In this document: in pieces, positions 7,616 to 63,331 of the stretch | Layout of the letters: each line of letters opens with the position of its first letter | Numbering within the stretch: the first letter of the stretch is position 1 | Assembly: GCA_021234155.1 (NCBI GenBank) | Contig: JAJEKV010000053.1 | Location: 7,083,424 to 7,147,423, forward strand | Source of the DNA: Isoetes taiwanensis | Taxonomy: Eukaryota; Streptophyta; Lycopodiopsida; Isoetales; Isoetaceae | Reading direction: 5' to 3' | DNA length: 64,000 nt | Made by a program: the position numbers and the translations under genes | The notes under the pieces: model-generated | Database searches by the model: none | Seen by the model: only the letters and a program-made list of their open reading frames with translations | Told to the model about the DNA's origin: nothing

Positions 7616-8647
7616 ATTTTCAAAGCTTTGCAGATCATAATACCCTCCCCTGGCTCTGCGTATTCAGTAAACAAAAGGGCAATCTTCAGAAACAAGCTTA
7701 TTGTACAGTTGGACAAGATGTTATATAGCGTTCTTTACCTCTACAGATCACAGATATGCATCTCCGGCATCCTTATCTTATCAACCCATATTTGGTATGT
7801 TGTTTGTTATGGCTTGCCTATACAATTTTTACATGTACAAGTAAGAGCATTTAGTTTGGTTTTGGAAAATGCTATCCCTGTTCATAACATGATGCTTCGT
7901 GTGCAACGTTTCTCGAGTAGGGGAGCAGGTGGCTTAGGGGTCTTCTGTTGTCCGATCCATATAACACCTAATCACAGCATGATTTTCTACTTTTGTAGTC
8001 TTTGTGAAATACTTACTTATATGCTTTCTGGATGCAGGGCGCCACTATCTTGATGCTGATGCTTCAGATAACCTTCAAAGTGGGAAGAAATTTGGATGAA
8101 TTCTTTGCCAAATTTTCTGTTTCAAGTAGATGAGATTGTCTGGACACTGCCATGATTTATCCTAGGTGAGTCTTTCTCCAGTTTCTTTGTTTTGCCTACG
8201 TTTTATAAAAATAGGTCTCTTCCGATGTTAATCAGTTTCCTCATCTTTGAACTACTTCTTGACTTTGAAAAAGCATTTTTATGAGCGGACTAACTTCCTC
8301 TCAAAACGTTTTGAGAAAATATCTGTTATGGCATATTAGATTCTTGCAAAATTGTCACGAAAATGTCGTAGCTTGCTTCAAAAGATTAATCACTCTTTTC
8401 CAACAATATTTTCCTGCTGGGAGGTCAGCAATTTGTTGCAAACTTCTATCTATTTTAATTTCCCCTGTTAGAATGGCTGTTTACTCGATTATGTACCACT
8501 TGGATGTAACCCTTTTGTGACAGCAGGGCAATATACATAATATGCCTACATGCAACCTCTGTTATTTTATATGAGGGCTGAATAGCCATCCAAATGCATA
8601 GTTTGCCTCAGCCATGGGATCACAATGGAAGGGTCTGCAACTTCTTC

Positions 8648-8872
8648 TCTATGTCTGGCGTTTCCAACCCTTTCTCATTACGTAAATACAATAATGTAGA
8701 TCCACCTTGATTGCTGATACTCAGTAAATATTGGCAAAGCATAAGTATGTGTCATCCTGGATATGAGGATGATGATGTTATTTCCTTTTCTCTACTTTTG
8801 GCTTTTCCAGCCCCTTTTTATTATGTAAATACAGTAATATAGATCCAACTTGATTGTTGATACTCAGTAATG
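8648..8872. repeat. Diverged direct duplication of about 90 bp
   Basis: The segment around 8660-8728 (CATTACGTAAATACAATAAT ... TACTCAGTAAAT) reappears at about 8800-8870 (TATTATGTAAATACAGTAAT ... TACTCAGTAATG) with scattered differences. It lies just before the retrotransposon insertion site. Confidence 0.65.
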
Positions 8873-8968
8873 GAGGATGGACAATGCCTCTTTTCCAACA
8901 GCAGTGGGCTTCATGGCAATGCGTGTGCAAGTTGTCTAAGCATTTGCAATTATGAGCATCTATTTCTA

Positions 8969-8973
8969 GCCAT
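8969..8973. repeat. 5-bp target site duplication, left copy (GCCAT)
   Basis: GCCAT directly precedes the TGTTAGTC that starts the left LTR and is repeated directly after the right LTR at 19984-19988. It marks the insertion point of the whole element. Confidence 0.9.
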
Positions 8974-9541
8974 TGTTAGTCCTGTGCCTCCTGGTACAGG
9001 ACTATTCATGCATACGACGGACCAGGTCAGGTCCAAGGATCCACAGTCAGGCACGGGTCAGTCGTCAAAGGTCCAGCAGCAGACCACGCAGTCAAAGCCT
9101 GGGTTCGCTACCAAGAGGCGGCGCTCAGACAAGTGATAGCCCGTCACCGCCAGCCGCGGTCGCGTGATTCGTGCACTTCAAGAGGCACCGCCAAGATTCC
9201 TCAAATGGGCCTCCTTCCAGGAGTCGGCACCGAGATCAGTCAGAGTGTCTATATTGGGCCAAAGGCCATTGTACTATATATATGAGTAGAGCTAGCACAT
9301 GAGTTTTTAGATGAGTTTTGAGCCTTGTCTCACTTCAGTTTCTCTCAGTTGCGAGAGCTCATGTATCATCATCATTGATATCAAGGAAGCTTATCATTGT
9401 TGTCTCATTGTTCTCTTGTTTTCTTTCCCTTTTCTTTGTTTTCTTGCAAATCCCGCGTGACATAGTCCCCGGATTCTCCTGTTAGATCCACGGGTCCTCA
9501 CAGAGGGTCGTCTTTGCGAGAGTTCGAACCCGGACCCCAAA
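8974..9541 (+). repeat. 5' LTR
   Basis: It begins TGTTAGTC and its right half is nearly identical to that of the 3' LTR. A TATA box (ACTATATATATGAG, about 9272) lies about 300 bp in, marking the U3/R boundary region. The inner end (CCCGGACCCCAAA) lacks the clean CA seen at the end of the 3' LTR, so the last bases are uncertain by 2-3 nt. The U3 part differs from the 3' LTR by many substitutions and indels. Confidence 0.9.
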
Positions 9542-9560
9542 TTGCCGCGGCTGCCGGTGC
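9542..9560 (+). promoter_or_regulatory. Probable primer binding site, tRNA-Asp type
   Basis: The bases directly after the 5' LTR, TTGCCGCGGCTGCCGG, match at 13 of 18 positions the complement of the 3' end of plant tRNA-Asp as I remember it (TGGCGCCGTTGCCGGGGA). Athila-like elements use this primer. The mismatches fit a decayed copy. Confidence 0.5.
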
Positions 9561-9686
9561 GATTCGATTTTCCTTTCTTACAGCCGCCATGTCTCGCGCT
9601 CAAACTTCACGCCCGGAAGAACTCCTTTCCCAGACGACGTCTCGCTTGGGCGCCATCATCGAAGGGAAGCTGTTCATGCGACATGT

Positions 9687-19402: not shown

Positions 19403-19983
19403 TGTTAGTCACGTGCCTCCTAGTACGGGGACTATTCATGCATCTGACGGACGGTCAGGTCCAAGGATCCTGATCGAGCCGCAGTCGATCGTCAAAGGCC
19501 CGGAGAAGACCAAGCGGCCGAACACCTTGATCAAAGCACGGGTCGCTACCAAGAGGCTAAGGCTTCAGACAAGTGATAGCCCGTCCCGCTGCGTCGGCGT
19601 CGGCGTGATTCGTGCACTTCAAGAGGCACCGCCAGCATTCCTCCAAATCAGGCCTCCTTCCAGGAGTCGGCACCGAGATCAGTCAGAGTGTCTATATTGG
19701 GCCAAAGGCCATTGTACTATATATACGAGGCTAGCACATGAGTTTTTAGATGAGTTTTGAGTCTTGTCTCACTTCAGTTTCTCTCGGTTGCGAGAGCTCA
19801 TGTATCACCATCATTGATATCAAGGAAGCTTATCATTGTTGTCTCATTGTTCTCTTGTTTTCTTTCCCTTTTCTTTGTTTTCTTGCAAATCCCGCGTGAC
19901 ATAGTCCCCGGATTCTCCTGTTAGATCCACGGGTCCTCACAGAGGGCTGTCTTGCAGGAGTTCCCGAACCCAGACCCCAAACA
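19403..19983 (+). repeat. 3' LTR
   Basis: It runs from TGTTAGTC to CCCCAAACA, so it has the canonical TG...CA ends, and is followed directly by the target duplication GCCAT. The TATA region (ACTATATATACGAG, about 19,717) and the right half match the 5' LTR closely, while the left half has diverged and differs by indels. Confidence 0.92.
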
Positions 19984-39657: not shown

Positions 39658-40389
39658 TCTTGAAGCAGGGATAGGTTCAATACTGTATACGTTTTATACG
39701 CAATACGTATTTTTCGTTTGATACGGCACAAATTTGACGTTTAATACGTCAAAAATACGGCTAAAAAAATTTCCGGCGTCGAAAACTTTCGCGTAAGCGA
39801 AAACAACTGTTTCGCTTACGCGAAGTCTGGTTCGCGTAAGCGAAACAGTATTTTTCGCTTACGCGAACCAGAAATAGTTTCGCGTAAGCGAAATGAACTG
39901 TTTCGCTTACGCGAAAACATCTTCGCGTAAGCGAAACAGTCAAGTTCGCTTACGCGAAACTATTTCTGGTTCGCGCCTCGAAATATATATAGAAAACTTC
40001 GCGTAAGCGAAAACTTCTGCTTCGCTTACGCGAACCGCCCTTCGCGTAAGCGAAACGCAAAGAATGCTTACGCGAACAAAAAAAAGTTTCGCGTAAGCGA
40101 ACCTTTATACTTCGCTTACGCGAAAAGAGTTTCGCGTAAGCGAACATTAAGGCTTCGCTTACGCGAAAGCCGGCGAGGGGATTCGCGTAAGCGAAAACTT
40201 AGACTTCGCTTACGCGAAAGAAAGTTCGCGTAAGCGAAACAGAAGGTTTCGCTTACGCGAAACTTTTTTTTTCCGGCCGGCGAGTATTAAATACAAAAAA
40301 TACGTATTTTTCCCAAAAATACGTATTTTTGCACTTTATACGTCTGAAAAAATAGTTTCATACGTACAGAACCTATCCCTGTCTTGAAG
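39658..40389. mobile_element. hAT-type MITE with perfect 8-bp target duplication
   Basis: The element (39,666-40,381, 716 bp) starts CAGGGATAGGTTC and ends with its exact complement. It is flanked on both sides by TCTTGAAG (39,658-39,665 and 40,382-40,389). An 8-bp duplication and CAGGG termini are the marks of the hAT superfamily. Just inside each end are TACG-rich stretches (AATACGTATTTTT), then short GC patches (CCGGCG). The interior is an array of inverted 14-mers. It has no transposase, so a hAT enzyme elsewhere must have moved it. Confidence 0.88.
39788..40261. repeat. Array of about 20 alternating inverted 14-mers
   Basis: TTCGCGTAAGCGAA and its reverse complement TTCGCTTACGCGAA alternate strictly, ten of each by my count, with spacers mostly of 4-12 nt. 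One unit is truncated (about 40,053) and one longer interval (about 39,970-40,000) contains a degenerate copy. Each unit is itself a near-palindrome (TTCGC/GCGAA arms), so the array can fold at two levels: within units and between neighbours. Confidence 0.92.
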
Positions 40390-45541: not shown

Positions 45542-48022
45542 TTATACAGAGTCACATTTTTGCAGTTCAATGGTACCGGCATAGCCTTCATATCTCAAAA
45601 ATACTTTGCCTTCGAGAATTTCATCCATCAGTTGGCTGACCTCGGTATTATTCATTCCTCGAAGGTATCTTAGGAAAGTCTTGTTGAAGAACTCTTTAGA
45701 AGGCTTATCTGGCAGTTCCCCATGGTCATCAGCCAGCTTCCGCGTTGCCCACTTGTTAACAACAGCAACTAGCTTAGACCATGATTCTTCTTGCATGAAA
45801 AGGAATTGCTTTTCATCCTTGAATTCTTTAACCTTCAAGATCATTGTAGCTACGTCAAAGAAATCCTGTAATTAAAAGCTGGTCAGGATCGCGACGACGA
45901 TCTTCTATAGCTGAAAATAAGAACCTACCTTCCAAGCGGATGATACTGCAGTGCTTGTTGGGCCTTGTGGAGGGCATCCATAAGCCTTGTGCTGATTCCT
46001 TAATTGCTGGAGCTTTTCGATTAGTGGCTCCTTATATACTGTATCCGCTATAATGTCATTGCACTGTATGGATAACTGAATATACTCTTTATTGGAGAGA
46101 TTTCCATTTAGCACCCGGCTTCTTCGCTTTGCATAGCTTTAGCAAATTCCAGTCGTTGCTCGACATTTCCCATCATAGAACAAAGAATTTGTGCAGCAAA
46201 AATACTGTGATTACCAGAAATAATATAAACTTTCTTGTTCAAGAGCTCCTCAGGGCGGGACCAAGTGATCAACTTCCTGCATTGATGTCCCATCAATTAA
46301 TAGGCATTATAAACAGGCGGTCTAATGGAGAGAAATATGCAATAAAACTTACCTTGTCACTGGGTCAAATGGGATGACATCGGCAGGCGTGAGAACCTCC
46401 GTTGGGCACCTTTTGCAGCTCTTGATTACTGTGTGTGCATGATCATTAGATCGAACCCTATGAGTTAGATTTGCTGGGGCTGTCTTACAATAAAAAATGT
46501 TGATCTTCTGAAACCAATTCACTCCCATAGGATAAAATCTTTTAAATTCTTCTAGCTTGGAGGCGGTCTGTTCAGTAAGCTTCTTTTCTTCATCTGGATT
46601 GAATTTTAATTCATCGGGCATACGTGAAGCAGATGACAAAGTCAACATGGAAGTCGTAGCTATAGAGTTGGTGGACGAGGTGGGAGTAGACGAAGTAGAG
46701 GGCTGCCCAGTCTCTTCAGTATTTAAGTTTCGAAGCTTAACCTTGAAGGTACTTATCTTTCTTAGAAGAGGTGCTTCATGTGTATCCGAGTCTTTCATTG
46801 GAAGAGGCATAAGCATATTTTGACCTGAGGGATCAACAATGGCAGATCCGCCTGGATTTGTATTCTGTACAGGCTGAGACACTAAGGATTCTTTTGGAGT
46901 TGATGGTTCACCTACAACAGCTAATGGGACTACAGTTTTTTCTTGGCAACTACCCGCAACCAGTTCGTGTCCATCCGAAAAGGCATTTTGTTGTCATTTG
47001 TAGCCTTCAACGCAATGGAAGGAGGTTTCTTATCAGCGGAAAGGCCCTTCCTGCACATGTTGAAGCCAACAGTATATCCCTATTGCACTTTATCCCAGAC
47101 AAGCTCAACGAATCATAAGATGGCAGGTTCCAACCATATCCTTTAGCACTAGTGGGTACCTCCTTGCCACTAGCAGGCTTATTCGCCTTGCTTGCAGTCA
47201 TGATAGACGGATCATAGTTTTGCTAGCGCAAAACATACTCCACAAATTGTAGCTGCGGTGTATCCTCCACGTTGCATATGATTGCATCTTGGATATTATT
47301 TTTGGTGCCCTCCCACATAGTGACTATTATGCCCATCTGTTTAAAATCTTCTGGGCCCTTTCTGTTCCTCAAGAAGAGACACAAGTCCTTCCGGCGTTCT
47401 CCTGCCACATGAGGTTTGGCCTGAGCTATTTCCATGCACCATTTCCGACTTCTATCAGGAGTTACAATGCGCATGGATTCCACGTTGGGGCCGCGGAAAA
47501 GCTCCAATGCTGCAAGTAGAATATGAAACTGATAAGTGACACCACTCACTACTCAAAGACATGGCAAAGTGCACACAAGGAACGCGGCCGCGATCTTTAC
47601 AAGTAGACAGACAAAAATATTATTAACAAGAATATATTTGCAAGGATCGCGCCCGGATCTTTGTGAGCAAATTACAGATATGATATACGCACTAATGCTA
47701 AGTATCGCGGCCGCGATCTGTATAACAAGTAGAGATATAAGTATTATCTAGTGTTTAGGTTAATGTGCTCTAAAGGATCGCGCCCGCGATAGTTGTGAGC
47801 AATATCTTAAAACTACACTGTATTTATTGGTGAAAAGAATCACGATCGCGATTCTCACAAGCATGAATACTGTAAAAATACAGAAATACTGCTCGTGAAC
47901 ATCGCGGCCGCGATCCTATCGAGCATATAGCATGCTAAAAACAGGACAACTAATGCTAAAACGACAGCAGTGATCGTGAAAAGCGCGAAAATGCCTTTTT
48001 TTAAGGCGGCTGAGCAAGACAT
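45542..48022 (-). pseudogene. ParB-like mobile gene, copy 1 (truncated, broken)
   Basis: Exon 1 (48,022-47,995) encodes MSCSAALKK and ends one base into a codon. A phase-1 intron (47,994-47,510, GC-AG ends) holds the palindrome array. Exon 2 starts ALELFRGPNVES, then RIVTPDRSRKWCMEIAQ and WEGTKNNIQDAIICNVEDT. A TAG follows EYVLR; YGWNLPSYDSLSLSG and a low-complexity Ser/Thr region come after. A ParB-like segment spans a good intron (donor 46,352, acceptor 46,277): LTPADVIPFDPVTR, then KLITWSRPEELLNKKVYIIS with GNHSIFAAQIL. The end is LPDKPSKEFFNKTFLRYLRG to the stop at 45,542. Compared with copy 2 it has one stop, at least two frameshifts (near 46,945 and 46,108) and lacks the methyltransferase-like half. 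ParB assignment is inference from DxIPFDPxT and GNH-AAQ. Confidence 0.6.
47582..47914. repeat. Palindrome array in intron 1 of copy 1
   Basis: Six units with the core ATCGCGGCCGCGAT or a close variant lie at about 47,582, 47,645, 47,704, 47,776, 47,839 and 47,901, spaced 59-72 bp. Three carry the full GCGGCCGC; the fifth is centred on CGATCG. Spacers share TTGTGAGCA/GAGCAT-like words. The array lies wholly between the donor and acceptor of intron 1. Confidence 0.85.
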
Positions 48023-48106
48023 GGCGGCGGTCGAAGGCGCTCGAAAAATTCTGTAGGCGCTCGTGAATTGGATCGCGAAGGAGCCGAGATCTGTGATTTT
48101 CGTGAA

Positions 48107-48114
48107 TTTATAGA
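48107..48114 (-). promoter_or_regulatory. TATA box of ParB-like copy 1
   Basis: The minus strand reads TTCTATAAATT here, about 85 bp upstream of the ATG at 48,022. The same word occurs upstream of copy 2 (56,521-56,531), so it appears conserved between copies. Confidence 0.6.
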
Positions 48115-48154
48115 ATAGGGGTCATTAATGACCCGTCATAATGACGGCCAGAAA

Positions 48155-48230
48155 ATTAATTTCCGGCGGGTGCAATAAATTCCGCGGGCGCAATAAATAC
48201 CGAGGGCGCAATAAATTCCGGCGGCGGATC
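48155..48230. repeat. Short tandem repeat GGGCGCAATAAATWCCG
   Basis: Three copies with a period of about 21-22 bp stand upstream of the ParB-like copy 1 promoter. Function unknown; they may be promoter elements. Confidence 0.7.
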
Positions 48231-48334
48231 CAGAATATTCTTAAAAACGCCGGAATCGACGTTTTTATTCTCTGCACGGACGCCACCACTAAGTTCAAAA
48301 TTCTATACCATGGGACCCGGGGAAGGAGAACAAA

Positions 48335-48470
48335 ATAGTCACAGCATGCGAGTTTAAATGAGACAATGACACTCGCAATACAGCATGGGACGGGTTGCAG
48401 GATAACATATTACTCACGGCACGCGAGTTTAAATGAGACAGTGACAGTCACAATATGGCATGGAAAAGCC
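48335..48470. repeat. Two-copy direct repeat, about 80-bp period
   Basis: GCGAGTTTAAATGAGACA, followed by TGACA-TC-CAATA and GCATGG, occurs at about 48,348 and 48,425. It lies between the two divergent genes. Confidence 0.75.
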
Positions 48471-48942
48471 CCTCTAGAATTACCTGAATTTGAAATTCAA
48501 ACTCAATTCACCCAGCTACACGGCCACACCAGCCATTCGTTCAAATTGGACTCGGGGAGGAGGCTTCTAAGGCGCTGAATAGGTCTTCGAAGGCGATCGT
48601 CTAAATTGGAGGCATTTGAGACGCTCATCTGGAAATGGAAGGCGATCTTGAATATTTGAAGACATTTTTCTGGTATTTCGACTCCTGCATGCTCTGAAGA
48701 GTGGAATCAGACAAGATTTACTATTAAAACTTTGTTTTAATTAAATTATAGGACATCTATACCATTTTAACTTCTGTTATATCAAATGAACGAGTTAGAC
48801 AGCAGAAGAGGCCCAGATTTGTATGTTATATTCTATGTAAAGTAATGTCTTGTCTGAAATGAATTTCACAACATAGTTATCACCCTGGCAAACTTATCGC
48901 AGCTTCAAACCCTGGCCAACTTCAAATCACTGACCGCATTCC

Positions 48943-49325
48943 GAACGCGACAGCGATCTTCGTCTCAGCAGTCAAGAAGTATAAATAGTTAATGTTAGAG
49001 CAAACTGATAAAATGTTGGAGCAAAGTGATTTAATGATGAAGCAAATGGATACTAATTTAATGTCTATTGCTTGATCAGGGCTGCTCGTGTCCTCAGCTA
49101 GATCGCGACAGCAATCTTCATCAGCTTTCAACAAGTATATCTTAGTATTGCAGAAAACATGTCTTAGCATTGGAGCAAACGTGTCTTATCACTGGAGCAA
49201 ACTTGTACAAGCCTCTCAGTCCTCAGCTAGATCGTGGCGACGATCTTGAGCAGCACTAGCTTTTCCTGCCGTTCAACTTTTTCCTCAAACAAGCATTTAG
49301 TGCTTCGTATCATCGCCACCGCGAT
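48943..49325. repeat. Imperfect palindrome array upstream of the third gene
   Basis: Four units related to GATCGCG-RCRG-CGATC lie at about 48,943, 49,101, 49,230 and 49,312. They keep the ATCG/CGAT flanks but have diverged centres (ACAG, GGCG, CACC). Spacers contain repeated TGGAGCAAA words. The array ends just before the acceptor at 49,358. Confidence 0.65.
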
Positions 49326-49359
49326 TTCTAATAGCACTATCGGCCTTGTCTAATTCAAG

Positions 49360-50712
49360 GTGGTTGAATCAAGGTCCATACTATTCAATGGTGTCAAAGT
49401 CAGGGAGGGCAAAGTATATGGTTTCAACAAACATCACAACTTGCCCTTGCCCGTGGGCACCGTGGTAGTGTCTATGGATAAGACTTTGGACGGAAGCATA
49501 CCTTTGCCATATCCAGAAGCCGAGATTTCAACACTCAGAGAGTCGCTGGGGAGTTTCATTTTGTGGCCTGTACGTTGTATAGCGTCGCTTGCGCCCGAAG
49601 GTGACATATCGACTCCGCCAGCGCAGTTAAAAAAATTTAACTGGTAGGTAGTCGAAGACGAGGAAGGTCCATTCAAGCAAACCTGTGGTGATAAAGGCAT
49701 TTCAAGAGATGAGCTGATGGAGAGGAATTGCATGCTGATGCATGACTGCTGCTATATGCACAGGGGGTGATCATCTTCACTGATCCTAATCAGGTAGTTG
49801 GTGACATAAGGTTAGGGGAAGACTTCCTGGCTGCCACCGTGAGTGAAGATATGTCCTATGCCAGAGAAGCCGTCTATGAGATGCCAAGCTTGTGCTGAAA
49901 TGCCGCAACTACACGACTTGGTCAGGTGGTCCAATGCCTTGGTGTTAGTAGACAATATCACAATATCGACTCTCATAGAGGTTGTGAAAGAACAGAACAT
50001 CGAGACAGAACCCTGTGCAATCCAAGTGGAAGTTGCTAAGACTCAAAAGAGGTCTTATAGAATGGTGAATCGAACACCTGCTACTCCATGTAAGATTGAT
50101 AAGAAGATCACTACAGCTTCTATTCTAGACTTCAAATCCATGATTTGGTGCATTCGCAGATGTTGTGCCACTTTCTCCACCTGCGAGATCAAGTCCATGC
50201 GAAGTTTCTTTTGGAATATAAGTGCTGCGGACAGGACCACCTTTGCTTACAACATGCTTGACCTTTGCTCAGAAAATGGGCAGGTCCGGAAGGTGATGCT
50301 AAATAACAAGCAAGTCTGCTTGAAAGCATGGCACAAAGCTTACGACATTCCAATGTCAACTTTCTATAAGTGGCGTGAACTTTTCCTTGCTGGTCATTAG
50401 ACTTGTTGAACATGATAATACGGGCTCAAAGAAACCAAGGTCGCCCAACCTGTGCTAGCTACAAAAACTCCATCTGGCAATCCAATGCAAATCTGTAGCA
50501 GGCTGATAAATTCAGCCTATGCTATCTTCAACCACAAAAAATTCAAGCAAGTGCACAAAGATTTTAATAAGGAAAAGGCCTTCAGATTATTAGCAAAGAA
50601 AACAATTAAAAAAATTATATCCCCGTGCTTTCAGGTACAGCTACCTGAACTACCACAAACCCTTCGCTCCAGAACCAAAATAAAAACAGATGCTGCTGCT
50701 ACGACCTCCTAA
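49360..50712 (+). pseudogene. Transposon-like gene beside ParB-like copy 1, broken
   Basis: After an acceptor-like CAAG at 49,359 the frame reads VVESRSILFNGVKVREGKVY, LPVGTVVVSMDKTLDGSIPL and TLRESLGSFILWPVRCI. This pattern recalls the domain that accompanies plant CACTA-type transposases (listed, as I remember, as DUF8039). A second frame (49,843-50,400) has KVMLNNKQVCLKAWHKAYDI and PMSTFYKWRELFLAGH, a motif common to several plant and animal transposon proteins. A third piece (50,452-50,712) ends in a basic tail. Frames change at about 49,650 and 50,400. It lies head to head with ParB-like copy 1, so both might belong to one element. Confidence 0.4.
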
Positions 50713-53361
50713 AATTTTGGCCATAGAACACAGGTATGAAGCTGAGAATGCAGTTCTGATCAAGAAAGCCACTAGAGAAGAACCTTGGGCAAAAAAACTA
50801 GCTATTCAATGGCCTCAGCATCTCTAGCAAGAAAAAAATGAACAAAGCCGTCATGATTAGTATTGGGAAGCCTACTCACTGTTAATACATTTGGTATTTG
50901 TTTGGGCTTTGGACAATGTTATCTCATAGCAAAATGTAAAATAACGGCACACCCTAAGGGAGGTATAACCGCATTCAGATGACCTAACCCTAAAGCGAAT
51001 TTCTACTGTGGTCGCTTCTAATAGCCCGATGCCTCCAATGGATGGCCACTTCTTGTTTCTTGCAGCGGGCCTAGGCTTCAATCATCGATTCTTTGTGCTC
51101 TTCCACTTTCGAGATGAGATATGGTGGAATCCAGCAGAGTCAACTGCCTACGGAACTCTGTCTCCTCATGGTATGGTATGAGCAATTTGCAATAGATTTC
51201 GATTTTCTATCAGGATGCTCTGCTCGAAAATTGCATGTAGCTCTGATCTTTGCCACAATCGTTCCAAGATCTGATGGGATAGACAAAATACGAAGTGCTA
51301 TTTTCTTCCAATATTGAATCACTTAATTATTCTCGTGCATAAGATAAGATAAGATAAGATGAATTTTTACGTCCACTGGAAGACTAGGTAAATTTATGTT
51401 GTTTGATTAGATTGCATACGATGAAGGAGTTTTAACAGTCACGATTCCATTCGGAAACAGGGCTGCTCACGGTTGCACTTAACTCCTGCATACAAACATA
51501 ATCTGGATAAGTACAACGAAGGGAATCAAAGTATTTGGGTTGCTATTCATAGGTACAGAAGCTTTTGCGTTGCATATTAGACATGGCCTCTTACTTTTGT
51601 CCGTTTGACTTACAAAATGCAAAGCAGTTTCTTATTGATGTGTATGTTTGTGCACAGCTTGGCGAATAAAACAGGTATTGCTGTTGACCATGTAGTTTCT
51701 TCTGAAGAAATAGATGGCGTACTTACTGCAGGGTCAACATAAGTGCAGGTAAACAGCCTGCAATTTTAAGTCATATTCCTCTAATAAGCATCTCATGTGC
51801 AGTTGCATTTTGTTGTTAGCATCTAGAAAGGATCATGTGAATGTCTCAAGGTCATCCTCACCCATAGAAAATCATTCAACAAGAAACCTGTTTGGTATGT
51901 TTCTAAAGAGGGGAGAGTTTATATGGACATGGAACATGCATATAATGGGATTGGTTGCATTGCATGTTAGACATCCCAATAACATGTTTTGGGTTACTTA
52001 CTACAAATAACAAGGCGGGCAGAAGAGGAGATGTTTTTACAGAAGATTTTGAAAGAGCAGCAGGTGAGTGCACTCTTATGGATTCTTCTTTATGTAACAT
52101 ATTACATGGTATTTTCCTTGGCTGGTTTTTGAAAGCAGGAGCCCGTACAAGCACATTCTGTTATACAGCTTGTTTGTAGCATAATGAGTCCAAATTCTGC
52201 ATTAGTTTATCTGTTTCTAATATCTTAAACTCTGATTTTTGTGATTCTAGCATTTTGGACTCTGATTTCTGTGTTTCTGTTAGAAATATGTCATGAACAT
52301 GTGCTGAGGAGAATTGATTTGCAGCTGCAGAGATAAGTAAAGAAGCTTAAATGCACTTTCAGCTATTTGTTCAAAGCAAAGCGATATTTTTCTCGAGGCT
52401 TTTGGTCTTGTGGGTTCAAATCCCAAAGCTTTCTCTCAACTGCATTGCTCCGGCAGTTCCGTTCGTCTAACTTTTCTGTACACCTCGTATGTGGTTTCTT
52501 TCAGGGTGGTTTTTCTCCGGATTTGGTTTAATTCCGTTTCTTATGGTGGGCAGAGTAGACCATTGAGTTTCCATTTTTTAGGTCTCAAGTGGAACAAGAT
52601 TTCAAGGGATCTCCCTAATCAAACGGCCAGGAATATACTATGACAAAAGAAGTGAATTCTTATCATTAAACTTCACACACAAAGCAATATTAAATATCAT
52701 ATATTAGAAAATTAGGGATATTCACAACCTTGAAAAATTGTAATCGTTTTACTGTTTGAAATCATAGAAAGAAAAATTGTATTAGCAGATTTAACCACGT
52801 CAATTTGCCGCGTTGTATGTTTTCGTTTAACTACTAGAAAATATCATATATTTTAATTTAGAAAAGCCAATCATGTTTTATTATCATGCAGAATGATATG
52901 GTAAAAGAATTCATATTAGTCTATCACGTTGTGTATTGATAATTAGTCAGTGTAAAGCATCATAAAAATATGGTAAAACAAGTCATATTAGTATATTTAA
53001 ACCAAGTATATTTATTAGGTTGTGTATTGATAAATAATTAGTATAAAGCATCATGATAATTATGCACTTAAAATTATCATGTCAATATATTGGTTAAGAT
53101 AGACGGGTACAAATACCAGCCCCCTAAATTTGACATACTAAACATTCATCCATATCATATATTCTAGTTGGTTATAAAGACCACTTAAAATTACGATGTT
53201 TTAATACCATGTAACAAAACAATGTTGGTTTATCACCTTAGAAAAATATATTGATTAACCACACTATATAACTAGACATGGTTTGTAAACTTTTGAACCC
53301 ACAAACATGTACTGATTTATGGATTCGACTTTCACCAACAAATCATTAAAATAAAATCATA
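50713..53361. other. Non-coding DNA with a short (ATAAG)n microsatellite
   Basis: No gene is recognised in about 2.6 kb. A microsatellite of the unit ATAAG lies at about 51,339-51,360. The last kilobase is very AT-rich. Confidence 0.5.
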
Positions 53362-54605
53362 TTGATTCAGTTTTGGGGGCCTTGTGAAAGTAATGAGCAA
53401 CTGGCTGCTAAACTCGCTGCTCAAAATACTGTGATAATGCAAAATATGGGGGATATCCTTGCCTCCCTTGCGGGTGATGCAACCAACAATGCAATAGATT
53501 CACAGGTTAACTGGGATTTAATTGAATTGATAAGGCACCTGAGAGAGAAGGGGCCATTAATAACCCAAGCGACTCTAGTGATTTCGAGGTTTGCCAAATC
53601 AATACTAAAATTATGTCAGTTGTGAAGGACGTAAAGGAACTAATAGAAAATACAAAGATATAACAATTCTAACAGTCAGAAGAGCACAGAGATTAAGGGT
53701 GGCGAAGGGGAGAATGATGCTAACGACGACAGCGAAACTGAAGATGATAGATATGGCCTTGCAGATGAAATCGTGCCACGCGTGATTTAATTTATCTTTA
53801 GTTTGAATTAAATCGCACCAAGCATGTTTTGTTTACATTTCATTGTCAGATTAAATCATGTCGAGCGCGATTTGGTTAAGCCTAACTCAAATCACGCCTG
53901 ACGCATTTGTATTGTTGCAATGTATAATATAAGGGTGTGCATGATCATATCTTGCTGACCAGATACATGTTTGATGTTTCAGCTTCTCTCCGGTTTCTAA
54001 GAAGGTTTGGTGTTCGATCTAAACGGAGTTATTTGTAAGACTTTTCCGAAAAATAAAGTGGCTAGAGATCAGTTTCACCAGACACCAGTAGAATCAAATT
54101 TCAAGTGGAACTATTCGCGGCCGCACTTGAAAAAGATGCTAGATGAGGCATTTAGGTTATTTCGAGTTGGTATTTGGTCATCGATGGAACTAAGGAACAT
54201 CAAAGATACTGTGGAGGCATTGGGGGAAATGGGTAGACATTGGTTGACCTTTTGGGATCAACACAAATGTGTGAAGTTCACTAATTCCAAGGATCCAACA
54301 GGCAAGCCTATCTTCATCAAACATAGGACGAACTTGGTATCGAGAATAAGGATGATATAATCATAGTGGATGATGATGCTCTCAAATGCTTCTACAATCA
54401 AACGCAGGCCCTGAATCCACTATCTTATGATCCAAAAAATTTTGTGACAGATGATTTTCTGGTGAAGTTTATGTCTATTATAAATAATTTGGTTATAGGG
54501 ATGACAGTGCGTGAAGTGTTAGATTCACACCCAGAACTAGATAGAACAGTTGACATGGAACCACACCTTGTTAAATTCCTGGAAAAACATGGATTGATCC
54601 CTTAA
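53362..54605 (+). pseudogene. FCP1/NLI-interacting-factor-like HAD phosphatase, broken
   Basis: The recognisable part is at 54,007-54,605: FDLNGVICK (HAD motif I region, with DLNG in place of the catalytic DxD), VGIWSSM, FWDQHKCVKFTN, KPIFIKHR and, after a 1-nt frameshift near 54,330, IVDDDALKCFYNQ. These follow the FCP1-homology order seen in plant NLI-interacting-factor-like proteins, which act on phosphoserine in nuclear targets. Replacing the second aspartate would impair phosphatase activity. The piece at 53,362-53,625 (ESNEQLAAKLAAQNTVIMQN) and an acidic stretch near 53,720 may be its N-terminal part, separated by a stop. Confidence 0.55.
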
Positions 54606-54734
54606 TATTTTATTGAAATATATGATATTTTTGTATGATATTTGTGTCATGTATCCATAAATTCGGGTCTCCAATTGCCTCGCAAATAATGTAATCTGTT
54701 ATTATCCAACCGAATATTTTCAAGGGACCAGTGG

Positions 54735-56150
54735 TCTCGTTTGTTGCAGGATTTGGCCTTGGTTGAGGTCCCTGGGGACTTGTCTTTCACCTATTGTAAT
54801 AGGCAGATTGGTGCGGGCCGGGCGTATGCTAGGCATGACCGGTGTTATGCTTCCCCATGCGCACTGGATGGTATGCCCTCTTTGTGCCGGAGTAACATTC
54901 TGTCTACCTCCATTTCTGATCATTACCCTCAAGTTTCGTCCAGTCAGGGTGCAGTTGCCTCTCGGCCCTCTAGGACGGTGTTCCGTTTGAACACCCGGCT
55001 TCTGGCTGATGCGGATTTCTCGGCCCAGTGCCAGGAGTTGTGGCTTGATACCTTTTCATCTCTGAAGGGTATGTCTGGTATGGTGACTGCCTTGCCCAGG
55101 GTGAAGCGTTTTGCCAAGGTCTTTGGTAGGCAGCGTGTGCAGTAGGAGCGGCAGGAGTTGCATGGTCTCTATCAGGAGTTGGAGAGGATTCGGGCGCAGC
55201 CTTCTGATGCCATCAGGGAGAATGCAGTGTTGCAGCGTATTGTTGCTCTGGAGCAGGTTAAAGTCGCGGGAGGCATGTGAAGGCGGCCCTTACCGGGTTG
55301 AAGGAGGGGACACAAGTTCGTTTGTTCTTGAGCAGACTAGGGCGGCGATATCAAAGATCTATGGCGCCCCTTGCTTTGCCTCGATGGCCGGAATTTGGAG
55401 GATCCCGCTGATTTGCAGAGGTATGTGCATGCCCATTTCTTAGGGTTTTTCGCGACCGCGACTCTTCCCTATGAGCGAGGAGATGCGGGGAGCTTGTCTT
55501 GGGGGTCGTTAAGTCATTGATTCGCGCCTCACCAAACAAGTGAGAGCTTGGAGGCGGAGCTCTCCAGAGAGGATTTAGTCTGCAGCATGTATGTGCATGG
55601 CCAAGGATAAATGTCCCGGGCTGGATGGCATCCCCTGTGGAGTTCTTTTCGGACTTATTGGGAGTGGGCTGGTGAGTGATTGTACCGTGTGTATCTTGAG
55701 TTGCCGCAGTCTTCTCAAATGTTTAGGATATTGAATACCGCATGCATTTCCTTGATTCCTAAGGTTAAGCAGCCTTCTACTATTAATGATTGGAGGCCTA
55801 TCTCCTTGTTGTCCTCTGTGTATAAGATTATTGCGAAAGCCCTGGCAGAGAAGTTGAAGCCGGTGTTGACTTCTTCCATTAGTAAGGTGCGTACTGGTTT
55901 GTCCCCGGCGGGAACATTTTGACTAATGTTGCCGCAGCCTTATGAGGGCCTTTATTGGGCCAGAAGAACAGGTCAAGGCATTGCCTATCTTAAGCTTGAC
56001 TTTGCCAAAGCTTACGATAGTGTCCGTTGGGAGTTTTTGTCTGCCATGATGTTAGCACTGGGCTGTGGTCCACGCTTTAGAGAGACAGTCATGAAGTTGC
56101 ATAGGTCAGCACGGGCTACGGTCAGCACGGGCTCCAGCGCCTCGAAGATC
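54735..56150 (+). mobile_element. LINE (L1 type), 5' portion: endonuclease end and first half of RT
   Basis: ALVEVPGDLSFTYCNRQIG, ARHDRCYAS and SDHYPQVSS are the C-terminal motifs of a plant L1 endonuclease. Next come ISLIPKVKQPSTINDWRPIS with VYKIIAKALAEKL and [19 protein letters not shown], the first RT blocks. Frameshifts and stops are present. The RT stops at about 56,150 and resumes at about 61,285, after the inserted ParB-like element. The 5' end is truncated. Confidence 0.85.
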
Positions 56151-56522
56151 TTGCAAAACAATGAAATTTGAATTGGCTTTTCCCGCTTTCTCGAATTGGT
56201 TTGTTCTCGATTTCAAATTCTCTGATCCATCTGTCCGTCCAGAACCGGATTTTTTGGGGCATTTATAGTCGTGATAATGTGTCAGTCCGAAATTACGCCC
56301 GAATTTGAACGCGGACGCCCAAGTGGATAAGGACCTTTCCTACGGATTACTTGCCTTTTTCGGACGGGGTATATTCAGATTTAATCGCATTTATGTCGGG
56401 GAATAAATACGTACGGCCGGGCCGGTAATTATTATCGCCGTGCACGACGCCATTATGGCCGCACGCTTTTTCACGCAGCAAGCAATTATGAGGGGCGGAC
56501 AATTAATTTCAGCGGCAGCGTT

Positions 56523-56530
56523 CTATAAAT
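56523..56530 (+). promoter_or_regulatory. TATA box of ParB-like copy 2
   Basis: TTCTATAAATTG lies about 126 bp upstream of the ATG at 56,656 and matches the box of copy 1 (TTCTATAAATT). Confidence 0.6.
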
Positions 56531-56655
56531 TGAAACTTCAAACCTTTAAAACAAATTTCGACTACGATTTGATTCAGCGCCCTAGCCTTCACCCTCCGAA
56601 ATTTTCTCGAGCCACTCCAAAAGACTCAGATTAACGAACTCGGCCCAGCGATCCC

Positions 56656-59600
56656 ATGGCACCTAAGGACTCCCTCAAAGAAGGTATTTTCTAACATTTC
56701 ATTCAGCAAGATGGCGGCCGCGATCTTGCCTACTCGAAGCTTCTATTGTTTTCATAAGTGTAGCTGCCGGCAAGATCGCGGCCGCGGTCTTGCTTGATAG
56801 GTTTTGTAATTTCTAGACAGCGTTCTTCATAAGTGTAGCTGCTCAACAAGATCGCGGCCCCGGTCTTGCTTGATAGGTTTTGTAATTTCTAGACAAATGG
56901 TCTTCATAAGTGTAGCTGCTCAACAAGATCGCGCCACGGCCCGGCCGAAAGTATAGATTTTCTTTCTTTTATATGTTTCATGAGTACTAGTGTAGTATCG
57001 CCATTAGGTTCGCGGACCGCGATGTTTTCTTGTCGTGCTTAAGTGCTACACAACGTCGCGGCCGCGATAGTGTGGAGTTCTATTTTAGCTGCTCGGCATG
57101 ATCGCGGTCGCGTTTCTCTACAGTAGTTTCTACCTTTTCCTTGCACCACATTATGCGCACCTACCGTGCACTCACCACGGGCTTTTGTTTACAAAGACTT
57201 GCTCTCTCCGAGGACCGGATGTCGAAGCTAGTCCAGATTATAACCCCTTCCAATGAAAGGAAATGGTGTATTGAGATTGCACAGGCTATACCGCGACATT
57301 AAGGGTGACCGCAGAAAGGACCTGCAGGCTCGCTTTGCGGACCGGAAAAAGCCGAGGACGCGTTGAACAAGTTGGCATAGTGGTGGCAATGTGGGAAGGC
57401 ACGAAGAACAATGTGCAAGATGCTATCGTATGCAAAGATTGAGGACACACAAGCATTGCAGTTTTCGGAGTACATTTTGAAATGGCGCAATTATGACCCG
57501 CCTATGATGATGACCAAAATGAACAAGCCAAAATTACGTGGAAAAAACGCCCCCACGCCGCCTAAGGGTTATGGCTGGTTGTTGCCATCCTATGAATCTC
57601 TCTCTTTGTCGTATAAAGGGAAACAGAGACATATTGCTCGGGTTCTTGGCATGCGTAAATGGTTTGTCTACTGACAAGAAGCCTCCGAAGCCGTGCCTTG
57701 AAAGCGGGCTCGACGAAGATGCCCTCCGTGATGGACACTAATTGACTAAGAGCCGTGGCCAAGAAAAAAGTGTGAAGCCTATTGCTGCTTTGGGAGAGAC
57801 ATCAGCACCAAAAAAGAAATTGCTCAAGAACCACAATCCACGATAAACCCCTCCGGTATTGTTAACCCTACTCTTCCTATTGCTATGAAGGCCCCGAGAT
57901 AGCACTACATCCGGGTGGATTTATTCCAAAAAGTTCCCTCCTTTCGAATTAGCCTCGTGAATCGGACACCCATCAAGATAGCCCTTGATCCGGCCAGTTC
58001 ACAAACCCCCGCGATTCACGGATGCTTCCTCTAAACTAGCATTGCCATGGCACCACGACCGCCATTCGGTCGAGTTGAAGTTCAACCCAAGAGGAACGAA
58101 GATGGCAGAGCAAACCACTCAAGCTTGAACAAATTAAAAGGTTCTACCCCTTAGGGGTTAATTGGTTTACAAAGATTTCTATTTTTGATTGTGAACCCGC
58201 ACTCAAAGCAAACTTGACACACGAACGCGGTCAAATGACCATGTTCAAACTCTGGTTAAAAGCTTCAAGACATACCCGACAGAGGTCCTCACCCCCCGGG
58301 TGACGCCGTTCCGCTTGACCCTATTACCGTGTAACTAATTCTTTATCTTTTGGACACTCGTTATGTAGATTTGACCTCGACGGTTGTCTATCTTTCGTGA
58401 AGAGGGTGACATGGAGCAATCAGTAAGATTTGAAGGGCAAGAAATTTTATATTATTTCGGCAACCACAAAGATTTTGGCGCCAGACAACTCCTTTGTTCT
58501 GGTTGTCGGCGAAGTTCGAAAGCAAAAGAACGAGAATTTGCCAAAGTATATGCTAGAAGACGATCGAGGGTGCTCAACGGAAATCTTACGCACAAGGAAT
58601 ATATAGAGTTGAGTATTCAATGCAACGGTAATTGCAAACACCGCGGTCTGAGAGCCACCGATTGAAAAACCGCAACAACTTCGCCATCAAGACAAGGCTT
58701 ATGGTTGCCCTCCACAAGGACCTATAGGGACAAAGCTAAAACTTCAGCTTGGAAGGTATTTATTTGTTTTCTACTCGCCAAGTTCGCTAATCACGATCTT
58801 GAAGACCTTGAAATTGCTTCGCAGGATTTCCATGAAATTGCAACGACCACCTTGAAAGTGCAGGAGCTTAAGGATGAAAAACAATTCATTTTATGGATGA
58901 AAAGGTTTTCAAGAAGTTAATGGAAGTTGCCGGCCGTGGGTGAGTCGTGAAACTTCTGATGGCGACCATGGTGAGTTTCCGGACAAGCCATCCAAAGACT
59001 TCTTTAACAAGACCGGCCGGTTGTTACGAGGTATGTCGAATGCGTAGGTGTCACAAATTGCCGATGAGATTATAGAAGGCAAGACGATTTAAAGGTGCAA
59101 TCAAAGTTATAGCGGAGATTTGATTGCAAACAACGGGCAACCGACATCGTAGAACCCTCACTTTATGAGGCGAGAAATTTTTCTTATGCCACAAATTTAT
59201 CGCAAAAGGATTTCGATAGTGGGAGGAATTGCTTCGTGCTTTTCCCCGATTTGATCGAACAGAGAATACCGGATATATCGATACCGATACAGAGTAACGC
59301 CAAGGCTAATTATAACAAGGATCATACACTAGGTAACCCACCAGAGCTTTTCCGAGCCAATCGGGAATATTCTAAAAGCCGTAAGAGGCTAGAAAAAGAA
59401 AGGAAAAGAAAAATATTGTCATAGCAAAGTTGACAAAGGATGGCATCCCTACTTCCTCCCAAGTGTCGAGAATGCGACATTGATATTTATTGACATCCGA
59501 GGGATGAACAAGGTATGGGATTGCAAGAAATACACAGATCTATTTACAAGGATAGCTACCATGACGATTGCCAAAGTTTATCACTTGGTTATTATCATGC

Positions 59601-60823
59601 GCCGCTGAATTTGCCAAATTGCTTTGTACAAATAAGCAAATTCAGCATGGTGGCTACCTATCTTTAGGTTCCTATGAAGAAAGCGGGATGGGAGAGCAAA
59701 CGAAGGGTGAAAGAACATCAAGATTTTATTAGTCATATGTGCATTAACAGGGTGATGTTGTTGTGTAACACCGCGGCAACCAGAGTTGAGCTTCACCTAT
59801 CTCCACACGGCAAGGCTCCTAAGTCAACACCATTGCCTCCAATGCCGCTAACGGGTAATGAGGATGCCGACGAGAAGATAAAAAGAAATATCGACTCTTT
59901 TTACGTGCAAACCAAGATTCAAATGGGCTGCAATGGAAGGAGATCTTGTATTGAAATGCCACTGAAAACCTCCTATGCCTACCATATTGTTGAACAATTT
60001 GGTGCCGACCGATGGTTGTGTTCGGATTTTTTTCTACGGACGACTTCTCGTGTTGCTCTTATGCAAGGCAAAAAGAGCGTGGCTTTCGAAAGTTCAGGTA
60101 AAGTGTGCCGTTTCCTGAGGGCGTTCTTTGAAACGCTTGATAAAATGGCCAATCCAAGTGCCGATGGGTTTGAGGAAGAGCCGAAAGCAGAGAGGGTTGA
60201 GCCTGATCCAGCTCAACCCGACATCAGTATCACCCAAAACACAGATCTATCAAAGTTGGATTCCATTTTGGAAAACCTCGATGCTAAGTCCTACGAAGAG
60301 AGAATGCAAGAAACAAAGCGTTTGCTTGAAGAGACGGAAAAAGGTATAGAAGCCCTAGAGCCCACTTTTCAAAAATTGAGTGCACTTAATGAGAAGCTTG
60401 ATGGGTACATGCCTTTCTTGACAAAGCTTAACATCGGTTTGAATACGCGTCTTGGCGAGAACACATGGAAGCAGACCAAGAAGACATGGAGATTGACCAA
60501 GATGAGGTTCTTGGGTCACAGGAGCATCAGGTACACAGCAAGAAGCAGAAGCTCTCTCATCCACAGCAGAATGCTACTGCTGATCGGAGCTACTGCAAAA
60601 CGAACTTATAGGCGGGAGCAGTGCAATGGACAGTGAAGAATGGGAGCCTGATTCACATCTGCAGCGCATCGCAAAGGCCATGGGTGTTGTAGTTCCAGAG
60701 ATCACAGGTTATTCAGAGATGGACACAACACAAGCTATGGAATTGGGTAGAGAGCATGTCAATCGCATGGCCAATGAAATGGGTGTGATACCTGATGAAG
60801 TATCTGAAACACAATCAGAATAA
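56656..60823 (+). pseudogene. ParB-like / adenine-methyltransferase-like mobile gene, copy 2 (long, broken)
   Basis: Exon 1 (56,656-56,683) encodes MAPKDSLKE. A phase-1 GT-AG intron (56,684-57,196) holds the palindromes. Exon 2 resumes DLLSEDRMSKLVQIITPSNE, then RKWCIEIAQAIP, KIEDTQALQFSEYILKW and YGWLLPSYESLSLS. The ParB-like part has a frameshifted counterpart of DxIPFDPxT near 58,310, then GNHKDFGARQLL (about 58,460), RVLNGNLTHKEYIELSIQCN and PDKPSKDFFNKT. The next part reads ATLIFIDIRGMNKVWDCKKY, HLVII and, after a 1-nt shift, CAAEFAKLLCTN. From 59,674 come WLCSDFFLRTTSRVALMQGK and KKSVAFESS. This order (DPPW-like site first, DxFxG-like site later) is that of a permuted beta-class adenine methyltransferase, but the sites read DIRG and DFFLRT. 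A coiled coil (60,250-60,420) and an acidic tail end at 60,823. Several indels break it. Confidence 0.55.
56712..57115. repeat. Palindrome array in intron 1 of copy 2
   Basis: Seven units based on ATCGCGGCCGCGAT lie at about 56,712, 56,775, 56,851, 56,928, 57,010, 57,055 and 57,101. Three have full GCGGCCGC; others read GCGGCCCC, GCGGACCGC or GCGGTCGC. Units 2-4 sit in a longer tandem repeat of about 75 bp (CTTCATAAGTGTAGCTGCTC ... CTTGATAGGTTTTG). The array lies wholly within intron 1. Confidence 0.85.
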
Positions 60824-61284
60824 TTATCTCCTTCAATCAGTAATTATGTTGTATATTACTTCCTTCAATGGAAATTTTTGTTTCGGGAACTTTGGTTTTG
60901 TCTTTACCCATCCTCTGTAGCAATTATATGGCTTTAAATACTGAATTTTGTGTGATATCCTTGCTCCTCGGTACCTTCTTTTAACACAATGCTCTCATAT
61001 GGTTTTAATAAAAGGCACATTATTTTGTCTCCTTTCAGGTGCTAAACATCGCTTCAAGGCTTCTTGAGAAGTTTTAACACTCCCTCCTACTACGTTATAC
61101 TCATGCGGTGAACCTTTGCATTAGCGGTAAAACTATATTTTCGAATAAGACCGAAAGTTTTTGAGAATTTGTGCAAAAAACGCCAACTTTTACTCAATTG
61201 GTAGTAGTTTTTGCACTATATGGCTATCCGCTAACCTATTTCATGCTAAACGAGAATTCCAAATTTCTCTAATTAATGAATTCA
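60824..61284. other. 3' flank of the ParB-like element up to the LINE junction
   Basis: No gene is seen. Near 61,251-61,263 the complement reads GAAATTTGGAATT, similar to GAAATTTGAATT at about 56,162 next to the other LINE junction; this could be a remnant inverted end, but it is weak. Confidence 0.35.
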
Positions 61285-63331
61285 TGCTTTGGTGTGCCAG
61301 GGTGAACCCTCCGCCTTTTTCTCCTTAGGGCGTAGGGGTGCGTCGAGGGGTGCCCTTTTGGCGCTTTTTGTTTACGATTGTGGCGGAGGCAATCGTCCTC
61401 GCTTGTTTTTGGCTGCAAGTGGAGGAGGGAGTGGTGGATGGTCTTCGGATGCGGGATGGTAGCCGCCAGATTATTAACCGGTTCTTGTCGATGACACTTT
61501 CCTCTTCTTGGTGGTGGCGAAGAGGAATTTGAGGAATGTGAAGGGTTTGTTGGATACTTTCTCCTTGGCCTCGGGCATTCTTCCGAAATGGGGTAAGTGC
61601 TCGCGATTATGGGCCCGGTGACTCGCCTCCCCTTGTTTGGCTCTATTCCCTTGGAAGGTGCTTCGGGTAATGTGTGTACTAAGTTGGGTATTCCCTTTGG
61701 AGGGATGTTTCTATGGGGAGGGTGTGGGATGAGATTTTTGCGGGGGTGCGCAGAAACACCTCAATTGGTGGAAGGGTAGCAAGTTGTCCATGGCGAGGTA
61801 GGATCACTATTGCCAAGTCATTACTTTGTAGCACTCATGTGTATACAACATCGTGATGCTAGCTCCTCGAGGGTAAGATATCTGAGGCTTTGGATAAGAT
61901 TGTTCAAATTTTGTGTGGGAGGGGATGATGAAGGGGCGGTTGTTAAAGTGGCTTGGTGGAAGTGTCTCCGCCCCAGGGAGGATGGGGGCTTGGCCATTTC
62001 GGATTGGTATTTTGCATAGTAAGGTGTTGGTCTCCAAGTTTGTTTGGAGCATTCCGCAGGATGGAGCATCTTCTCTGGTCTTGGCCGTTGTTGTTGCGAT
62101 CTCTTAGCCATTGTGTGGCGTTTGGGAAGCCGTCTGTGCATGTGGAGTTGCCCCCGGCCTTTGTTGTATGGTCTCCGCCTTTCCCACATGCATCCCCTTT
62201 TCTCACGGGAGTGTTGCGGGCTTGAGATCATGTGCGTGTGCTCTTTCAGCTAGATTATGCCTCGATTTATCACCACTCTTCTCCTTTCTTGTGGGTTCCT
62301 CTACCCCCTCAAGCGCACTTGCCCTTTGGTCGCCGTGCATGCTCTGACGCTAGACCGTTGGCGGCGAGCTCTAGGCGTGCTCACCTGGAGGATTGGTATT
62401 GGGGTGGTCGGCTAGCTTCGTGGGAGTTCTTCGAGCTCGCCGCCGAGGGCTGATGGCCCGGGCTATCTCGGGAGCACGTGGCGGGGAGTATTCCGCTACA
62501 CATACCTATAGTCCCTCGGGATGATGTGGTGGTGCGAGGTTTGGAAGGTTCATCCAGGATGTTGTATCTTCTTGCTTTGTGCGGTCTTCTTTACCGGAAA
62601 GGCCGGGCTATTCATGACACCCCCCCGGGCAAGTGGTCTCGCAGCCTTCCGGGTTCTCGATGGCTTCGGTTTGGGCGTGGACATGGAGCTCACTTCCCCA
62701 CCGAAGGTTAGGGTGCTTCGTGGCGGTGGTGCAATTTGTATCGTGGTGAATGCCCTTGTGAGTCGGTTTAATTTTGGGTGTGAGCCCTCTACGCCCTTGT
62801 TGTGGCCTTCATCGTGAGACCGTGGAGCATTATGCGGTTTTATGCCCTCACTTGCGGCTGCCTGGGATTGAGTTAGGGCTTTGTTTCGGTGAGATTGACT
62901 AGCCGCCATTTGCCGCTTCATGTGTATCTCGGTGCTTGGCCGCTCTTTGCGGCAACAAGCCTTGCATCCGTCGTGGCTTGGTTGGTGTGTGGTTGATTTG
63001 GAAGCGGCGGCGATTGTGGATCTTCGGGGGATTCAAAGCTGACTGCAGCCTCTCGATTCCTCGACTTCGGTACAAGCTATTTCAAAGCTTTTCGTGTTTC
63101 GGGAGTAGTAGAGCGGAAGTTTGCCATATGGCGGGACTTCTTGGGTGTTATAGATGGTGATGGTCAGTTTGTACAGCAGTAGAGTTGCAGTTTTTCTGTG
63201 AGTTTGTTGTGGAGTGTCGAGGTATCGCTGTCTCTTTGGGGCAGTTCTCCTTCCTCCTCACTTGCTTTGTAACATTACCATTCTTTTAATATATTGATGA
63301 CACAGTTCTTCAAAAAAAAAAAAAAAAATTT
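61285..63331 (+). mobile_element. LINE (L1 type), 3' portion with poly(A) tail
   Basis: RRGVPFWRFLFTIVAEAIV continues the RT block that breaks off at 56,150 (L1 consensus R-VRQGCPL-P-LF-AE). NLRNVKGLLDTFSLASGILP, KVAWWKCLRPREDGGLAISD and later tryptophan-rich pieces give the RT C-terminus. Frames change often. The element ends with about 17 A at 63,315-63,331, preceded by TTTAATATATTGATGACA. Confidence 0.8.

Follow-up and report, generated by a model that had tools for sequence, protein, structure and literature searches.

VANDAL transposons are Mutator-like elements (MULEs) with a MULE transposase and long target-site duplications (TSDs). In Arabidopsis, VANC proteins attach to arrays of motifs that lie within introns and in upstream regions, and methylation is lost as a result; the arrays were described in introns of VANC21 and VANB21 and upstream of VANA21 (PMC5735166). 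Here, we describe a transposon family of Isoetes taiwanensis represented by two gene copies in a stretch of 64,000 nucleotides (assembly GCA_021234155.1, contig JAJEKV010000053.1, positions 7,083,424 to 7,147,423 of the forward strand; hereafter the window). The family combines a DUF7869 transposase gene with a divergent accessory gene, and its palindromes are nearly exclusive to each transposon lineage, five types occurring in one genome. VANC/VANDAL anti-silencing is the nearest described system.

Both systems comprise a transposon-encoded accessory protein and short non-coding motif arrays that include accessory-gene introns and upstream regions, and in both the motif differs between related families. 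Such family-specific non-coding arrays are a hallmark of VANC/VANDAL and were found here as well. The systems differ in that a DUF7869 transposase and 4-bp TSDs stand here in place of a MULE transposase and long TSDs, the accessory protein is ParB-like and methylase-derived, and the sites are 14-bp palindromes, whereas the VANC21 motifs share one orientation. An earlier note on this DNA knew of no described plant system of this form; no description of this very system was found in the open-licence literature, but VANC/VANDAL is in print as a close functional analogue (PMC5735166).

Sola2 elements have 4-bp AT-rich TSDs, terminal inverted repeats (TIRs) and, in some families, an extra gene (PMC3627910). 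They resemble the Isoetes family in these three respects and differ in that the extra gene there is Fanzor1. A described transposon with its own methyltransferase gene is similar in carrying such a gene; its transposase is a different one, and the available part of its description mentions neither a ParB-like part nor cognate palindrome arrays. CACTA elements with TNPA possess iterated short motifs in subterminal position and encode two products. Short iterated motifs and a pair of gene products recur here, whereas the arrays are mainly internal, the TIRs start with a sequence other than CACTA and the TSDs measure 4 bp.

The genome of Isoetes taiwanensis (1,658,258,908 bases in 1110 pieces) was searched, and 20 stretches of 10 kb were fetched around matches to the palindrome ATCGCGGCCGCGAT; these were the first-listed places, not a random choice. 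All 20 contained pieces of the accessory gene, and similarity among them extended far past it. Upstream, on the opposite strand, lies the transposase gene. A typed join of pieces from loci L014 and L021 matched PF25273 (DUF7869) with E = 4.9e-37 and 127.8 bits at a cut-off of 26, and a piece from L005 holding only the domain start reached 20.9 bits. The element ends are inverted repeats, AAGCATGATTTCATTAATTGG and AAGCATGGTTTCATTAATTAG, starting AAGCATG; the TIR pattern has 637 exact matches in the genome, its reversed control none. Among 100 places listed, ten facing TIR pairs 5.4-18.5 kb apart were examined for TSDs, wider pairs being excluded. Nine showed a perfect 4-bp TSD directly abutting AAGCATG; one (C208) had none. 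Two copies traced end to end measured about 9.5 and 10.3 kb. The family, which the earlier note had taken to be mobile, is a cut-and-paste DNA transposon with TIRs, 4-bp TSDs and a two-gene layout.

A protein search gave at least 316 matches (132 of 6554 candidates scored). Pairwise ratios of nonsynonymous to synonymous substitution rates, with saturated and very close pairs excluded, had medians of 0.35, 0.23, 0.34 and 0.53 for four pieces of the accessory gene (46, 44, 33 and 31 pairs) and of 0.46, 0.48 and 0.41 for three pieces of the transposase (35, 17 and 24 pairs). Constraint on the accessory gene is about as strict as on the transposase. As a separate observation, a short open frame without significant Pfam match is repeated near the transposase-side end of L014 (oriented positions 402-692 and 1029-1322) and possibly represents a third product or a duplicated end.

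The palindrome ATCGCGGCCGCGAT, which marks lineage A, occurs 961 times in the genome as compared to about two occurrences expected at window composition, and its reversed control does not occur. A second set of 20 copies was chosen without using the palindrome, from at least 150 exon-2 protein matches; these unbiased copies start at query residue 1 or 2 and span 68-97% identity, and about 700 nt upstream of exon 2 were fetched for each. Palindrome sites were present there in all 20 (1-6 each, 80 in total), 19 copies holding a site with at most one mismatch; 400 shuffles yielded two sites. Exon 1 was recognised in 17 copies, and all sites in these lie downstream of it except one (L061, position 145). 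The arrays are kept across diverged copies, as had been claimed, and homologues without palindromes, which the earlier note had named as evidence against its idea, were not encountered among the 20 in this genome.

Site placement was counted in 20 loci and the two window copies, with 97,484 bp inside the coding mask and 64,850 bp outside. Coding sequence makes up 60% of the scored span, yet all 122 sites within it are non-coding (p ~2e-49); 127 sites were found in total, the other five outside that span. Between genes or in intron 1 lie 87 of the 122, a further 15 occupy later introns of the accessory gene, 13 its 3' side and seven the transposase side. The palindromes were correctly placed in intron 1 by the earlier note, but family sites are also found in later introns, on the 3' side and on the transposase side. 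Spacings of 62-64 bp are commonest; 34, 46, 71 and 82 bp also recur.

In the unbiased set, the half-site reads outward CCGCGAT-CTT-nnn-GAGCA, with A at position 15 in 92%. Column similarity of the core as compared to other intron columns was 0.888 vs 0.627 and 0.832 vs 0.682 for all copies; for the unbiased copies it was 0.873 vs 0.645, reached by one of 347 shifts, and 0.881 vs 0.808. One intron 1 site has changed in both arms to AACGCGGCCGCGTT (L005 at 4553, L021x at 7879 and other copies); its dyad reaches about 20 bp per arm in L005 and L021x.

A DUF7869 search gave at least 150 matches from 9902 first-look candidates, and five sister loci (L070-L074) were read. A divergent accessory gene that includes a ParB-like and a methylase region is present in all five, the methylase match in L074 being limited to the motif IV half. 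At up to two mismatches, the ATCGCGGCCGCGAT site was found in none of the five. Instead, each contains a repeated palindrome of its own: GTATGAATTCATAC in L070 and L071, GTATAAATTTATAC in L072, TATGCGCGCATA in L073 and TATTCCGGAATA in L074. With one mismatch allowed, the own type was counted 7, 7, 24, 24 and 9 times in L070 to L074; the sole foreign sites were four of the GTATAAATTTATAC type in each of L070 and L071. Outside the coding mask lie 77 of the 81 sister sites (p ~3e-20). The sequence CTATGCGCGCATAG occurs 1551 times in the genome and its reversed control not at all. Across the palindromes, the central six bases are GAATTC, AAATTT, GCGCGC, TCCGGA and CGGCCG; to our eye, they resemble restriction-modification targets.

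In the reverse comparison, 22 lineage A stretches (241,000 bp) contained 74 sites of their own type, none of three sister types and 13 of the GTATAAATTTATAC type, while the 20 unbiased stretches contained no site of any of the four sister types. All 13 exceptions lie in L023 at 7475-9615, inside a piece that is 74% identical to L072 and includes methylase and ParB-like sequence of that lineage. Since these foreign sites sit in a matching sister-element piece, the exception follows the lineage rule. The piece, at 6998-9999 of L023, abuts or interrupts the lineage A element.

The C-terminal half of the accessory protein carries GCVLDFFSGGTASRVALMQGKRSVAFE, which is similar to the S-adenosylmethionine-binding motif of N6/N4 DNA methylases. 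PF01555 was matched by five of the 18 members of A2 (best E = 6.9e-4) and a phage DNA-methyltransferase family by three of the 18 (best 9.4e-3). In two sister loci, the PF01555 match exceeds the cut-off of 26.7 bits (L070, E = 5.4e-15, 56.4 bits; L073, E = 3.2e-8, 34.2 bits), which establishes methylase homology of the accessory protein at the level of sequence. The catalytic motif IV of N6/N4 DNA methylases is of the DPPY type; it reads DIPYG in L070-L073 and DIPCG in L074.

The middle part of the protein reads like a ParB core (LIKSFKKYPTEVLTPADVVPFDP...KKFFIISGNHSIFAAQFL). In a profile comparison, the ParB-like regions of lineage A and of the sisters aligned over the same core (probability 27%, E = 6.7e-4), which is suggestive of a core shared by both; ParB kinship may be proposed from these motifs and the one weak profile match. 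PF02195 gave no match at E <= 10 with lineage A or sister proteins, and the ParB arginine box, GERRxR, is absent (GNHSIFAA in A5, GGTHSYKAR in the sisters). DUF6551 was weakly matched by two sister proteins (0.012 and 0.0099). The best PDB match, a cytochrome construct (E = 1.2e-4), was taken as chance, as it covers a short stretch outside the ParB-like core. The broken window copies gave no match in protein databases among candidates of more than 500 aa, a range outside which typical ParB proteins lie. A shorter profile found no ParB but three short relatives (P0003, P0004 and P0005; 54-62% identity) on small ENA contigs. No relative came from scans of viral contigs and plasmids, and a phage scan gave two matches at chance level (E = 2).

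We consider it probable, judging from sequence, that the accessory protein recognises the palindromes of its own lineage and keeps or marks the element active. The DUF7869 transposase would move the element via its TIRs, producing the 4-bp duplications. The divergently transcribed accessory gene encodes a protein that combines a ParB-like region with a C-terminal part descended from an N6/N4-type DNA methylase, and each lineage holds arrays of one private palindrome in the promoter region, the introns and the 3' part. The protein probably binds these palindromes as a dimer; once bound, it may keep the element expressible by blocking host silencing or, alternatively, in lineages with intact methylase motifs, write a self-mark. 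In sister lineages whose methylase motifs are normal, the protein may mark the palindromes directly. The palindrome follows the lineage within one nucleus, lies almost only in freely varying DNA and is kept despite spacer drift, as would be expected if it were a cognate binding site; placement in the promoter region, the introns and the 3' side fits a role in expression or chromatin of the element better than end recognition. With its ParB-like and methylase-derived parts, the accessory protein is the likeliest reader and hence the presumed binder of the palindromes, its effect being, we infer, anti-silencing or self-marking. The earlier note had overlooked the transposase, the half of the accessory protein that derives from a methylase, the occurrence of sites beyond intron 1 and the fact that palindromes are specific to lineages.

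Several results weigh against recognition by the accessory protein. Of at least 150 matches listed, five sister loci were read, three of them from the best four and two from further down, and L070 and L071 are near-identical copies. A single base in each arm separates GTATGAATTCATAC from GTATAAATTTATAC, and both types are present in L070 and L071 (7 and 4 sites). Four of the 81 sister sites lie inside the coding mask. In subfamily 2 of the unbiased copies, 18 of 467 circular shifts reached the core conservation, and conservation of the core columns is somewhat inflated because these columns were defined by motif match. The best lineage A match to PF01555 stays below the cut-off (20.1 of 26.7 bits), no methylase was matched by lineage A in NCBIfam or PDB and its motif IV is degenerate, D[MI]R[SG]; lineage A protein may therefore not methylate. 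ParB similarity, as put forward by the earlier note, holds at the level of motifs, but the lineage A protein matched no ParB in Pfam, PHROGs, NCBIfam or PDB, and the profile match to the sisters has a probability as low as 27%. AlphaFold models with a predicted local distance difference test score of 37.4 for the ParB-like region and of 40.5 were too poor to use.

A more far-reaching version is a self-recognition code, in which the ParB-like methylase of each lineage would read its own palindromes and, where its motifs are intact, mark them with N6-methyladenine or N4-methylcytosine; several orthogonal protein-palindrome pairs would then coexist per genome, evolved by switching of the central bases. 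This idea is tentative, and we would not expect it to hold in full.

Among the rival explanations, binding of the palindromes by the transposase survives best, although we regard it as unlikely. The sites would correspond to the subterminal TNPA repeats of CACTA and the accessory gene would be unrelated to them. The transposase stretch KAWHRAYGIPMSTFYKWRRLF reads, to us, like a helix-turn-helix, and four copies (L005, L011, L019x and L021x) have a site at a distance of about 350 bp from their right end. The transposase also co-varies with the lineage, so that it is a candidate reader as well and the cross-table does not separate the two proteins. The sites, however, are mostly internal, with 87 of 122 between genes or in intron 1 as compared to seven on the transposase side. 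One palindrome site is retained in a short derivative that has both TIRs and a TSD, but its deletion may postdate insertion.

Less likely again is pure autoregulation, by which the accessory protein would set its own level at promoter or intron with no silencing or marking role. In its favour, sites are densest within the first intron of the accessory gene, and further ones are found close to the transposase gene's 5' end. Sites in later introns and 3' of the accessory gene do not fit this explanation, nor does the methylase-derived sequence in all five sister loci read.

Binding of host factors, or the formation of intronic RNA hairpins, appears improbable. The two arms of a site are slightly more alike than arms taken from different sites (6.14 vs 5.53 of 13; 0 of 2000 shuffles), as hairpins would predict; but the clearest two-sided change, to AACGCGGCCGCGTT in ten cases, probably goes back to one ancestral site, which weakens the evidence for compensatory change. 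Furthermore, a shared host factor would not be expected to go with palindromes that vary between transposon lineages of a single genome, as they do here. Segregation or clustering by a ParABS-like system, brought to mind by the ParB-like core motif and by iterated palindromes near the gene such as the 14-16 bp sites of bacterial ParB/parS, is scarcely credible, since the element resides in chromosomes and requires no partition, the protein lacks the arginine box (GNHSIFAA), no significant sequence match was obtained and nothing supports the segregation suggested by the earlier note.

Should recognition by the accessory protein prove true, the family would represent another, independently built transposon system in which sequence-specific protein-motif pairs manage the element's own chromatin, differing from the known example by its transposase and its bacterial-type methylase protein. 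Several lineages with different palindromes are present in one genome; thus, specificity and its switching are directly testable. The published Isoetes taiwanensis assembly used Nanopore reads (PMC8566536). Such reads could allow the methylation state of the palindromes to be studied with no need for new plant material.

Both window copies are decayed remnants of the transposon family, broken by stops and frameshifts. The two copies, the 28-nt first exons, the introns of 485 and 513 nt and the palindromes reported by the earlier note are all present in the sequence. Over about 300 aa of hand-joined readings, the minus and plus copies are 52% identical. By blastn to fetched relatives, the minus copy (element A) is truncated at about 45,595 and at 50,440; it retains the front of the accessory gene and the front of the transposase. 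The plus copy (element B) has lost its left part and retains the right TIR but no transposase. Counting sites with at most two mismatches, or one outside the centre, the window holds 12: five in intron 1 of the minus copy, five in intron 1 of the plus copy, one at 49,312 and a stray one at 17,539. A sixth, weaker site in the minus-copy intron at about 47,644 falls under the cut-off. Altogether, 20 mononucleotide shuffles of the window gave two sites. The features are as follows.

45595-50440, accessory gene on minus strand, transposase fragment divergent on plus strand: element A, remnant with both ends missing
47995-48022, minus: accessory gene A exon 1, 28 nt, same exon in relatives
47510-47994, minus: accessory gene A intron 1, 485 nt, palindrome array, donor GC instead of GT
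46353-47509, minus: accessory gene A exon 2, one stop, one frameshift
45929-46276, minus: accessory gene A exon 3 with KKVYIISGNHSIFAAQIL, a ParB-like box without arginine; one frameshift
45595-45865, minus: accessory gene A exon 4, start; homology ends at 45,595
49360-50397, plus: N-terminal part of a DUF7869-type transposase, divergent from the accessory gene; tblastn 52-83% identity, the DUF7869 domain itself being demonstrated on relatives
47581-47594: palindrome site AACGCGGCCGCGAT
47704-47717: palindrome site ATCGCGGCCGCGAT
47777-47790: palindrome site ATCGCGCCCGCGAT
47839-47852: palindrome site ATCACGATCGCGAT
47901-47914: palindrome site ATCGCGGCCGCGAT, second occurrence
49312-49325: palindrome site adjoining the 5' end of the transposase fragment
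56132-61290, plus: element B, second remnant, left part lost, right end present; blastn to L012, L013 and L015
56656-56683, plus: accessory gene B exon 1, 28 nt, same exon in relatives
56684-57196, plus: accessory gene B intron 1, 513 nt by the acceptor of the earlier note, palindrome array
57197-60823, plus: remaining decayed coding part of accessory gene B, ParB-like at about 58.1-59.0 kb, methylase-derived at about 59.4-60.2 kb
56711-57114: five 14-bp palindrome sites of element B, starting at 56711, 56775, 56851, 57055 and 57101
61267-61289, minus: right TIR of element B (reverse complement of AAGCATGAATTCATTAATTAGAG)

By reading, remnants of a long interspersed nuclear element (LINE) reverse transcriptase flank element B on both sides (55.9-56.1 kb and 61.3-63 kb), which suggests that element B was inserted between two parts of a LINE. 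Elsewhere in the window, direct repeats at 8974-9541 and 19403-19981 are 87% identical and about 10 kb apart around a Gypsy-like element; they are probably its long terminal repeats. An array at 39.8-40.3 kb was considered as a third copy and rejected, since it belongs to a separate miniature inverted-repeat transposable element at 39666-40381. This element, which we take to be hAT-like by the TSD and TIR rule, has the TIR CAGGGATAGGTTC, an 8-bp target duplication TCTTGAAG and 19 alternating copies of TTCGCGTAAGCGAA.

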